Made by a program: the position numbers and the translations under genes. From positions 1 to 64,000 of the forward strand of contig CACZZG010000010.1 of assembly GCA_902785645.1 (NCBI GenBank): DNA of 64,000 nt, read 5' to 3'. This document shows positions 56,216-62,149 of the stretch, piece by piece. This stretch comes from an uncultured Erysipelotrichaceae bacterium (lineage in GTDB: Bacteria; Bacillota_I; Bacilli_A; RFN20; CAG-826). Below the pieces are notes generated by a model. It was given only the letters and a program-made list of their open reading frames with translations, did not search any database and was not told the DNA's origin. Each line of letters begins with the position of its first letter. The stretch's first letter is position 1.

Positions 56216-56252
56216 ATAAAAAAGAGCTGAGCTATTGTTGCTCAGCTTTTTG
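56216..56252. terminator. Bidirectional terminator
   Basis: AGCTGAGC TATTGTT GCTCAGCT is a perfect 8-bp stem with A-run before and T-run after, between the convergent GH3 and ABC ATPase genes; it overlaps the last ATPase codons. Confidence 0.8.
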
Positions 56253-59226: not shown

Positions 59227-59283
59227 AATAAAAGTTTGGCGTTGTTAGCACCAAACTGTTCTTCTCATCTTCATTCGGTGCTA
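59227..59283 (-). promoter_or_regulatory. Antiterminator/terminator pair (attenuator) of the ABC importer operon
   Basis: On the minus strand GTTTGGTG (59256-59249) and CGCCAAAC (59241-59234) form an 8-bp stem (one G-T pair) followed by TTTTATT: an intrinsic terminator 25 bp before the SBP gene. TAGCACC (59283-59277) can instead pair perfectly with GGTGCTA (59252-59246), which overlaps the terminator's 5' arm. The two folds exclude each other, the hallmark of an attenuator. No T-box (TGGNACC) sequence is present. Confidence 0.65.
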
Positions 59284-59328
59284 TCTATTTATCAATCAAC
59301 AACACCTAATAGCTAAAAAGCCAAGATA

Positions 59329-59388
59329 CTATTGATTGTCCCTTGGGAAATAAAAGCTATAAAAGTAATAAAATGCGTTTCTTAACAT
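59329..59388 (-). CDS. Phe/Tyr-rich leader peptide
   Basis: The ORF MLRNAFYYFYSFYFPRDNQ ends at TAG (59331-59329). Eight of 19 codons are Phe (4) or Tyr (4), clustered at codons 6-14. Its final Asn-Gln codons form the 5' arm CAATCAA (59338-59332), which can pair with TTGATTG (59299-59293), upstream of the antiterminator. This is the layout of ribosome-mediated attenuation: stalling at scarce Phe/Tyr would let the first hairpin and the antiterminator form. Weak point: only a poor RBS (AAGAAAAAAG) precedes the ATG. Confidence 0.5.
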   Translation of the reverse strand: MLRNAFYYFYSFYFPRDNQ

Positions 59389-59461
59389 AGTCACTTTTTT
59401 CTTGGTAATAAATCTAACGCATTTAATCCTTAATATCAATAATTAAATAAAAATCGGTCAA
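59371..59461 (-). promoter_or_regulatory. Putative promoter and 5' helix of the attenuated leader
   Basis: On the minus strand TTGACC (59461-59456) and GATATT (59437-59432) are 18 bp apart and would start transcription near 59425. A perfect 9-bp inverted repeat, AAATGCGTT (59424-59416) and AACGCATTT (59379-59371), lies right at the 5' end of that RNA and encloses the leader-peptide start codon. Confidence 0.4.
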
Positions 59462-59657: not shown

Positions 59658-59762
59658 ATGGAAATAGTTATTATTTTCTTAACGCTATTTCTATTTTGCC
59701 TAGTAGAAATAATTATAAACAAATGCTGGTTATTTGGTAGTGTTTTGTTTCTTTTTCTTTAA
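59658..59762 (+). CDS. Small hydrophobic peptide (possible type I toxin-like)
   Basis: A 34-residue ORF, MEIVIIFLTLFLFCLVEIII followed by NKCWLFGSVLFLFL, essentially one or two membrane helices with a single Glu pair and Asn-Lys-Cys-Trp. An ideal AGGAGG lies 8 nt before the ATG but is locked in a stem. Its 3' end overlaps the end of the convergent DedA-like gene. Size, hydrophobicity and RBS masking recall type I toxin mRNAs of Firmicutes, but I match it to no named family. It could be chance coding. Confidence 0.4.
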   Translation: MEIVIIFLTLFLFCLVEIIINKCWLFGSVLFLFL

Positions 59763-60485
59763 GAAGTTAGAGAGCCATTTATCGATTCTTTTTGCAAAGT
59801 ATAGTAATAGGCCCACATACGCGATGATTGTGACACCTACGCGTAAGTAATCTAATGGATCTCTGCTAGTAAATGATGAAACGCTTTCAGGAATGATTTG
59901 TACACCAAAGATGACAGTAGCGCATCCAATACCTCTACATAAAGCGATCTCTAATAAATGGATCCAGAAGTTCATTTTAGTGGCGCCGCTGACCATACAG
60001 ATAGCATCGTCAGGGAAGATGGGCAACAAATACATGACAGGGACATAGACCATGCCTTTTTCTTGGATTAATTCTTTAGCTTCTTCGTATTCATCTTTTC
60101 CTAAGATTTTAACAATAGCTTTATTGCCACCAAATCTTCCGATTAAATCCATTACGACAGATGTCAAAATGACACTAGTTAAACATATTAAGAAAATGAG
60201 AAATGGTGGTAAATAATCAAATGTCGCTAAAGATAGTAAGTCAAATATCATGCTACAAGCAGGCATGAAAGATAGGAATATAGTCATCACAACACGTAGT
60301 GAAATATACACTAAAATAGCCCATGGACCTGATTGTTTAATGTAGCCTTTTAAGACATTAACATCAGTTAAACCAAAGTGACGTAATAAGAAATATAAAC
60401 CGACTGAGATACTCGCTAAAACGAGTAAGACTAATACGATTTTTAATACCTTTTTAAATTTATCTTTGTTGATTTTTAGTTTCAT
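59730..60485 (-). CDS. DedA/TVP38-like (VTT domain) membrane protein
   Basis: A protein of about 251 residues with about six hydrophobic segments. The VTT/SNARE-associated core is recognisable: PACSMIFDLLSLATFDYLP, then LIGRFGGNKAIVKILG and the conserved LLPIFPDDAICMVSGATKM loop with re-entrant Pro/Asp. Members scramble or flip lipids such as undecaprenyl phosphate in bacteria. The frame is open to 60566, but those 27 residues lack family similarity and cross an AT-rich promoter-like region; ATG 60485 gives a basic N-terminus (MKLKINKDKFKKVLK) then helix 1. No clear RBS is seen for either start. Confidence 0.8.
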   Translation of the reverse strand: MKLKINKDKFKKVLKIVLVLLVLASISVGLYFLLRHFGLTDVNVLKGYIKQSGPWAILVYISLRVVMTIFLSFMPACSMIFDLLSLATFDYLPPFLIFLICLTSVILTSVVMDLIGRFGGNKAIVKILGKDEYEEAKELIQEKGMVYVPVMYLLPIFPDDAICMVSGATKMNFWIHLLEIALCRGIGCATVIFGVQIIPESVSSFTSRDPLDYLRVGVTIIAYVGLLLYFAKRIDKWLSNFLKKKKQNTTK

Positions 60486-60661
60486 GCTTACAACATATTT
60501 TATTCTTTTGACCAAAATAATAAAAACATTATTTGCATTAATTACCGGCAAAATAAACAACATCAAATTTTATAAAAATTGCCGAAAAGTGCAATAAAGT
60601 AGTATTTGTAGCAAAAAGATATATAATAATATACACAAAATAGTAGTGAGGTAATTGTTAT

Positions 60662-62149
60662 ATGAAATATCTAAGCATTTCAGAAACGGCAATAAAAATG
60701 GGATTATCGGAAAGAAGTATCCGTAATTATTGTGCCCAAGGACGTATCCCAGGAGCAATTTTAAAAGGAAAAAGCTGGTTAATTCCTTTTGATGCTAATA
60801 AACCATCAAGAATTAACGGCAAAGAAAATGAATGTGATGAAGAAGCTCTATCTTTGGGTTATGAATTAATCGATTTTATCAATAATTCTCCAGTACCTTT
60901 TTATGCGATTGAAAATGTTAAACAAAGATTATTAGATGGATCTTATGAACAGAAGTTCGAAAACAAAGATTTTAATTTGAAACCAGGTTCTAAGGTTTTC
61001 TTTATTAGAAACGGTTCTACTTTAATCGCTTTGAATGTCGGCAAAAACGTCAGTAGTGGTAATTGTCATTTCCACATCATTGTAAGTCATGACGATTCTC
61101 CATGTTTTAAAATCAAACCAGAATGCGATAGCAAAACTGATATTTATAACAAGATCAATGTTGAGACCTATGGTGGACTCATTAATTCTACATGGTTAGA
61201 TAGACCTTTAGGCATCGCTGGTAGAGTAATTGTTAATACTGAACAAGGGTTAGAAACTAGATTAATTAATCTTAACGACAATGTCGTGATGATTCCTAAT
61301 TTATGCATCCATTTCAATCGTGAAATTAACGAAGGATATAAATACGATAAGGCAATCGATTTGCAAGCTTTCATCGGACAAGAATTAGAAGGAAATCCAC
61401 TTAGAGAATTATTAAGTTCACACTTAAATGTGAAAACGGAAGATATTTCTAACTTTGATTTATATTTATATAATCGTGAATCTGGATATCTTTGGGGCAA
61501 TAAAAAAGAATACGTCTCCTCTTCTAGATTAGATGATTTGGAATGTGTTTATTGTTCTATGAAAGCATTCTTGCAAGAAGAAAATGACAACTGCATTAAT
61601 GTTTTATACATCGCAGATAACGAAGAAGTTGGTTCTTGTTCAAGACAAGGCGCGGATAGTGATTTCTTAGAAACAGTATTAGGAAAATGTGTTGATAAAT
61701 TAGGCGGAGATTATAAAGTTGCTCTAGCAAATTCATTTCTAATAAGCGCGGATAACGCACATGCAGTCCACCCAAATAAGCCAGGTATTTCTGATGCGGA
61801 TAATCGTCCATACATGAACAAAGGTATCGCTATTAAATTCAAAGGCGAAATGTTCTATACCACAGATGGCATTTCAGGAGCGATATTCCAAAGATTATGT
61901 GATAGTTCACATACTCCTTATCAATTCTTCACAAATAGAAGCGATATTAGAGGTGGTCATACATTAGGTGCATTACTACTTAGCCATGTTTCGATTATGG
62001 CGGTGGATATTGGTTTACCACAACTTGCGATGCACTCATCTTTTGAAACCGCAGGAACACTCGATATTAAATATGGTGTGAACGCATTTAAAGAATTCTA
62101 TTCCAGTAATATTGAAATAGAAGGCGATAACTATAAGATTTATAAATAA
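60662..62149 (+). CDS. M18 aminopeptidase fused to an N-terminal HTH domain
   Basis: A 495-residue protein. Residues 1-55 (LSISETAIKMGLSERSIRNYC then GRIPGAILKGKSWLIP) are a MerR/excisionase-like winged HTH. Residues about 60-495 are an M18 aspartyl aminopeptidase-type enzyme with all metal ligands: His in VSHDDSP near 142, Asp in WLDRPLGIAGRV near 179, Glu pair in DNEEVGSCSRQGADS near 320, Asp in ISADNAHAVHPN near 362 and His in LAMHSSFETAG near 457. RBS GAGG lies before the HTH Met and no start exists at the domain border, so the fusion is real in this sequence. A TATAAT lies at 60622-60627. Confidence 0.88.
   Translation: MKYLSISETAIKMGLSERSIRNYCAQGRIPGAILKGKSWLIPFDANKPSRINGKENECDEEALSLGYELIDFINNSPVPFYAIENVKQRLLDGSYEQKFENKDFNLKPGSKVFFIRNGSTLIALNVGKNVSSGNCHFHIIVSHDDSPCFKIKPECDSKTDIYNKINVETYGGLINSTWLDRPLGIAGRVIVNTEQGLETRLINLNDNVVMIPNLCIHFNREINEGYKYDKAIDLQAFIGQELEGNPLRELLSSHLNVKTEDISNFDLYLYNRESGYLWGNKKEYVSSSRLDDLECVYCSMKAFLQEENDNCINVLYIADNEEVGSCSRQGADSDFLETVLGKCVDKLGGDYKVALANSFLISADNAHAVHPNKPGISDADNRPYMNKGIAIKFKGEMFYTTDGISGAIFQRLCDSSHTPYQFFTNRSDIRGGHTLGALLLSHVSIMAVDIGLPQLAMHSSFETAGTLDIKYGVNAFKEFYSSNIEIEGDNYKIYK

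Follow-up and report, generated by a model that had tools for sequence, protein, structure and literature searches.

A putative phenylalanine/tyrosine leader-peptide attenuator of an ABC importer, conserved across several families of Bacilli

Introduction

Leader-peptide attenuation is usually seen as a device of Proteobacteria and Actinobacteria, with the Bacillota relying on T-boxes. In the his operon of Salmonella and E. coli, it reportedly works through a relay of mutually exclusive helices (the description is credited to Johnston et al. in 1980), which the relay proposed here resembles. The his attenuator has been outlined (PMC3896937), and two leader-peptide attenuators are described from the Bacillota itself: the His leader of hisS*/hisZ (PMC2965389) and the Leu-rich ilv attenuator of S. 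aureus (PMC5794164). In Acholeplasma, the uORFC-13-1 motif upstream of aroF is a candidate Phe uORF with at least one Phe codon, known from 24 representatives in one genus and environmental sequences (PMC8632094). Transporters of the TrpX family can carry T-box leaders, such as that of S. suis trpX (PMC9382623).

Here, we describe a leader upstream of a three-gene ABC importer in an uncultured Erysipelotrichaceae bacterium of gut type. We propose, with a probability of about 0.86, that it is a ribosome-mediated transcription attenuator which sets the expression of an importer of tyrosine and/or phenylalanine according to the charging of tRNA-Phe and tRNA-Tyr. The ORF and its conserved codons, four mutually exclusive helices with covariation, the terminator, and the substrate-type residues can all be read in the DNA.

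Results

The window (the whole 64,000-nucleotide stretch that was analyzed) contains the leader on its minus strand, which also carries the importer genes, the promoter hexamers, and every leader segment discussed below. The leader spans about 180 bases between a DedA/VTT-type gene (59730-60566), followed at its 3' side by a terminator-like site (59545-59524), and the importer. The importer consists of a lipoprotein substrate-binding protein (PF04392, 58198..59208), a permease (PF02653, 57239..58192), and an ATP-binding protein (PF00005, 56232..57245), and the operon ends in a terminator-like site (56225..56247). A consensus scan placed a putative -35 hexamer TTGATA at 59434..59439 and a putative -10 hexamer TAGATT at 59411..59416, with 17 nt between them; the site ends 22 nt short of the leader ATG. 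Relatives again have promoter-like sites at this position, with a score of at least 9 in 67% vs 21% of shuffled sequences. Neither the window nor its nearest relatives have a strong Shine-Dalgarno sequence for the leader ORF. Beyond the DedA/VTT-type gene, on the plus strand, lies an M18 aminopeptidase gene (60662-62149) whose product has a helix-turn-helix-like stretch at its N terminus (PF12728, 26.9 bits vs a cut-off of 27).

The leader ORF (59329..59388) encodes MLRNAFYYFYSFYFPRDNQ in 19 codons followed by TAG. As the preliminary description had reported, four Phe codons (6, 9, 12, and 14) and four Tyr codons (7, 8, 10, and 13) fall within nine positions, which together with one Ser make up codons 6 to 14 (59347..59373). 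After removal of duplicates, short ORFs with at least six Phe/Tyr codons per ten were counted upstream of the importer gene in 76 distinct regions from the order. Raising the threshold to seven or more in ten codons still gave such an ORF in 74% of 96 non-redundant regions ahead of this gene within the order; the reverse strand gave 0%, and for 1920 dinucleotide-shuffled sequences the share was 0.2%. Pooled over the leaders of the order, the ten codons in which Phe/Tyr is densest comprised Tyr 405 times, Phe 187 times, Ser 59 times, and Leu and Trp once each. We rejected a chance ORF in U-rich DNA on the basis of the shuffles, the reverse strand, and the near absence of Leu codons.

Codon usage within the leader differs between its core and its tail. 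In the nearest leader class (FYYFYSYYYPRGNQ), the third base of the Phe/Tyr codons is T or C and Phe and Tyr exchange for one another, whereas the tail codons CCA, AAT, and CAA are almost fixed, silent positions included. Thus, the core appears to be held for its amino acids and the tail for its RNA, and this codon conservation points to translation of the leader. Farther genera retain the Phe/Tyr run alone (e.g. AYFYYYYFR, SYFYFGYFYFR, and GFYYYYYYYR). At the level of the class, and in our own numbering of families, a Phe/Tyr leader was found in f12 (5 of 5 regions), f23 (17 of 19), f16, and part of f25, with weaker cases in f15, f18, and f24; many of the compared assemblies are metagenomic. 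Four loci of family f25 (L213, L214, L217, and L218) have the runs QQWSYYYYFS, SFFFFFR, QQWSCYYYFS, and SFFFNFR, which are possibly mainly-Tyr and Phe-only forms of the switch. A search of the window's own genome for further Phe/Tyr runs (TWY x5) returned 77 matches vs 183 in the reversed control, so it cannot pick out other leaders.

These patterns bear on a very unlikely alternative, in which the hairpins work without translation, as an RNA that binds a tRNA, metabolite, or protein, and the Phe/Tyr ORF arises only incidentally from the U-richness of the RNA. The region is indeed U-rich, and the window RNA folded without a ribosome can go both ways, with a terminator probability of 0.08 or 0.69 by choice of the 5' end. 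Against this stand the near absence of the equally U-rich Leu codons TTA and TTG (1 Leu vs 592 Phe/Tyr) and the persistence of the Phe/Tyr ORF where the hairpin sequence differs strongly. Rfam searches also argue against it: the T-box family (RF00230) had no match in the window leader, while the tyrS and valS leaders of the same genome did match, and neither the proteobacterial Phe leader nor any other Rfam family had a credible match in the window. A T-box or other known RNA family was accordingly rejected as the identity of the leader.

Downstream of the Phe/Tyr run, the attenuator that we propose comprises five segments and one additional hairpin, P1. The arms of P1 are CCAAG, in the Pro-Arg codons (59342..59346), and CTTGG (59321..59325); they form standard pairs in 20 of 22 relatives and enclose segment 1 in their loop. 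We think that P1 may serve as a pause or timing hairpin. Segment 1 (59327..59339) consists of the last codons and the stop, and its partner is segment 2 (GGTGTTGTTGATTG, 59293..59306): the last leader codons (ACAATCAATAGTA) pair with TTGTTGATTG and its flanks over 13 pairs at -10.5 kcal/mol, in a conserved helix. Segment 3 (GATAGCACCGAA, 59274..59285) can join segment 2 in a masking hairpin or segment 4 (TTTGGTGCTA, 59246..59255) in the antiterminator, where TAGCACCGAA pairs with TTTGGTGCTA (10 pairs, -13.9). Segment 4 provides the 5' arm and loop of the intrinsic terminator (4:5; AGTTTGGTGCTAACAACGCCAAACT plus TTTATT, with a T tract; 59227..59257), which was identified by a terminator call and by covariation and is separated by 18 bases from the start codon (ATG) of the binding protein.

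The pairings of the last codons with TTGATTG and of TAGCACC with GGTGCTA, and the terminator with its T-run before the binding-protein gene, had all been described previously and were recovered in place. The preliminary description had also named a GCTAT/ATAGC pairing as the mask. That pairing exists, at -6.4, and we rejected it as the mask because it is weaker than the conserved 2:3 helix at the same place, formed by GGTGTTGTT (59306-59298) and GATAGCACC (59285-59277) with nine pairs at -10.5.

Across 22 aligned relatives, helix 1:2 (the ORF end with GTTGATT) was paired in 96% of cells, with compensatory changes at 3 pairs, and helix 2:3 (GGTGTTnTTGATT with AATCAnnAGCACC) in 95%. Helix 3:4 was paired in 94%, with 21 two-sided changes that include AU/GC swaps (AGCACC/GGTGCT, GGCACC/GGTGCC, and GACACC/GGTGTC), and the terminator helix 4:5 in 94%, with 27 two-sided changes. 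Sliding one strand by 1 to 3 columns reduced pairing of the four helices to 16-65%. Shuffle counts for the helices are not to be taken as probabilities, since the aligned relatives are not independent. The alignment (A2) was built without L021 and L026, whose segment 3 was placed wrongly by MAFFT. Based on these comparisons, the four predicted helices (1:2, 2:3, 3:4, and 4:5, the terminator) are mutually exclusive, conserved, and covarying.

Other approaches covered a wider set of sequences. Terminators were predicted for 73 of the 76 distinct regions, mostly 58-82 bases past the leader stop and with diverse stem sequences. In an alignment-free analysis of 73 regions, helix 3:4 was significant at 5% in 84% and helix 2:3 in 82%. 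Automatic detection found helix 1:2 significant in just 43%, which is an underestimate because long bulged 3:4 duplexes took up segment 2 in many regions; the alignment test was used in its place for this helix. A covariance model of the element (R1) matched 45 of 274 genomes of the order, once in each, at sites fitting the upstream side of the importer gene. Locus L075 (G202:C6) keeps the leader and terminator and has lost most of segments 2-3, with 36 bases from stop to terminator vs about 80; this natural deletion should break the switch. The preliminary description had suggested comparing the leader among relatives and had reasoned that hairpins kept without the Phe/Tyr codons would speak against its proposal. 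The opposite was seen: Phe/Tyr codons, terminator, and exclusive pairings are all kept despite strong sequence divergence.

From this architecture, we infer stalling, termination in the cell, and a response to Phe and Tyr as follows. The leader would be transcribed from a promoter about 25-50 bases 5' of its ATG and translated at once. With Phe or Tyr scarce, the ribosome would stall on the Phe/Tyr run and leave segment 1 (codons D-N-Q-stop) free to pair with segment 2; segment 3 would then take segment 4, no terminator would form, and the importer would be ON. With both Phe and Tyr plentiful, the ribosome at the stop would cover segment 1, so that 2:3 pairs, segment 4 is left for segment 5, and the terminator would form (OFF). 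Between the last Phe/Tyr codon and N-Q-stop lie the P-R-D codons, and with this spacing a ribosome stalled at the former would leave the greater part of segment 1 uncovered. Starvation would thus give 1:2 plus 3:4, and plenty 2:3 plus 4:5.

We simulated this behavior by folding the RNA downstream of the ribosome, with the A site set at each leader codon and 12 bases from the A site taken as covered. In this equilibrium ensemble folding, which includes neither kinetics nor pseudoknots, the mean terminator probability over regions was 0.78 with the ribosome at the stop vs 0.51 at the Phe/Tyr codons. With shuffled spacers, the means were 0.81 and 0.83, respectively, and the change in segment-4 release differed from that of the shuffles (P = 3e-7). 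The change exceeded 0.2 in just 47% of regions at equilibrium. For the window leader, the terminator probability was 0.93 with the ribosome on the stop codon and ranged over 0-0.51 with it on the Phe/Tyr codons; the folding switch in the window is not clean, as a stall at Ser-11 gave 0.93 and stalls at codons 8-10 gave about 0.5.

The tail of the peptide raises a second alternative, which we consider highly improbable: a nascent-peptide arrest leader (TnaC-like), in which the ribosome would stall not for want of charged tRNA but through a block of the exit tunnel by the finished peptide together with free tyrosine or phenylalanine. The C-terminal PRxNQ is conserved in the nearest relatives, as such a leader might have it. 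These residues are encoded by nearly fixed codons within helices P1 and 1:2, though, and beyond the Phe/Tyr run the peptide is not conserved, with other genera ending in YFR, YYYYR, FI, or FNLGD. Arrest at the stop codon would also give OFF in the folding model, the same as completed translation. Arrest peptides of the TnaC/Erm type have fixed residues at a set distance from the stall site, and across genera we found only Phe/Tyr richness to be kept. We rejected an arrest peptide on account of these divergent tails.

The solved structure nearest to the binding protein is C. difficile CD0873 (6HNI). CD0873 has been shown to bind tyrosine, whose hydroxyl is in contact with Glu-263; Phe- and Trp-binding relatives carry Ala in place of this Glu, and the Trp binder carries Gln in place of Tyr-279 (PMC6816091). 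At these two positions, the window protein has Glu and Tyr, which would place it with the CD0873-like tyrosine type. The binding protein was present in 98 of 279 genomes of the order, and among the named relatives that carry its gene are many assemblies from rumen and omasum labeled Erysipelotrichaceae or "Bacilli". Homologues in the order with Glu or Asp had a leader in 68 cases and no clear leader in 14, some of the latter with truncated upstream DNA; those with Ala or Val had a leader in 1 case and none in 7. Several genomes have tandem copies of the binding-protein gene (L024/L031, L171/L225, L183/L197, L168/L227, and L188/L228). In genus g7, six loci with a tyrosine-type binding protein (L027, L095, L096, L102, L109, and L124) have neither a leader nor, where scanned, a T-box upstream.

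Orthologues in other families are preceded by T-boxes, whose specifiers we located by the position established for them in the Rfam alignment. Immediately ahead of 13 Glu/Tyr-type orthologues from families f20 and f25 sits a T-box, whose specifier is UUC (Phe) in nine and UAC (Tyr) in four. Two paralogues of the Ala type, L112 and L121, have a T-box with specifier UGG (Trp), suggesting that they are tryptophan importers. Judged by these specifiers, the single-codon T-boxes took Phe or Tyr, and the leader uses both. The source genome has a T-box with a UAC specifier directly before tyrS (L242:57-288 and 331-1548; own genome C4:44956-45187) and another before valS. With a tyrosine T-box on tyrS and a codon leader on the importer, two ways of sensing the same tRNA would coexist in this genome.

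Could the attenuator be as described and the importer serve mainly another substrate, such as tryptophan in the manner of streptococcal TrpX? The sole NCBIfam match of the binding protein is indeed the TrpX equivalog (NF041285), at 228.6 bits, well short of its cut-off of 390. We regard this reading as extremely unlikely, given the Glu/Tyr residues in place of Ala/Gln, the single Trp codon in the pooled Phe/Tyr-densest stretches of the leaders, and the orthologous T-boxes, which read Phe or Tyr and turn to Trp only where the residue is Ala. The aromatic amino acid importer of the preliminary description thus gains support from specificity residues and orthologue T-box specifiers, and can be narrowed: the substrate is likely tyrosine and/or phenylalanine, and tryptophan is unlikely.

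We found neither prephenate dehydratase nor chorismate synthase in the window's genome and five congeners, and both in 14 of 14 control genomes; the resulting aromatic auxotrophy of the genus also speaks for the proposed attenuator. The source assembly (1.17 Mb) is 88% complete, yet the absence is genus-wide; therefore, aromatic uptake is probably essential in this genus.

Discussion

The window leader combines an ORF with a Phe/Tyr run, predicted to be translated, with an intrinsic terminator and a mutually exclusive antiterminator, all features of ribosome-mediated attenuators; in the equilibrium simulation, the ribosome position shifts the fold as expected on average and, with exceptions, in the window. 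Some relatives with a tyrosine-type binding protein and no leader count against the proposal, as do the lack of a strong Shine-Dalgarno sequence, the imperfect folding switch, the two-way folding of the untranslated RNA, and the modest share of regions with an automatically detected helix 1:2. Leader-peptide control is rarely described in this bacterial group, and here it is conserved across many genera. On the broader history, we lean only slightly toward the view that, at the Phe/Tyr importer locus across Bacilli, a T-box with its one codon gave way to a leader that is coupled to translation and acts as an OR gate for two amino acids.

If the proposed mechanism is true, its wide conservation would imply that ribosome and RNA polymerase keep in step at the leader in these lineages, perhaps with P1 as a pause hairpin. 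This would contrast with the runaway transcription described for Bacillus subtilis (PMC13323073), and the leader offers a natural test of transcription-translation coupling in these lineages. The findings would extend an attenuator over several Bacilli families, responding to two amino acids at once, with T-boxes instead on the orthologous importer of other families. They would also indicate the likely substrate of a sizeable importer group in animal-associated bacteria, and an alignment is ready for a new RNA family.

Mechanisms of this kind are already known. Within the open-licence literature, neither a Phe/Tyr leader on an importer nor a leader based on tyrosine codons came to light, Rfam has no family for the element, and in that sense this version appears to be new. 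It shares with the proteobacterial his, pheA, and trp leaders a short ORF with runs of regulatory codons, alternative helices, and an intrinsic terminator before the first gene. It differs from them in having two amino acids per run, in controlling an importer and not biosynthesis, in occurring in Bacilli, and in having no Rfam match. The hisS*/hisZ His leader (PMC2965389) and the S. aureus ilv attenuator (PMC5794164) likewise pair a codon-run leader with a terminator in a T-box-using phylum, but they concern other amino acids and other genes, whereas the Phe/Tyr leader covers several Bacilli families. The uORFC-13-1 motif (PMC8632094) is similar in that a terminator follows its candidate Phe uORF and in that it belongs to the aromatic pathway of a low-GC lineage; unlike the Phe/Tyr leader, it sits on a biosynthetic gene and has no tyrosine run described. 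Finally, the S. suis trpX T-box (PMC9382623) places the same transporter family under the control of aminoacyl-tRNA shortage. T-boxes bind tRNA directly through one specifier codon, whereas in the Phe/Tyr leader translation would read eight codons for two amino acids.
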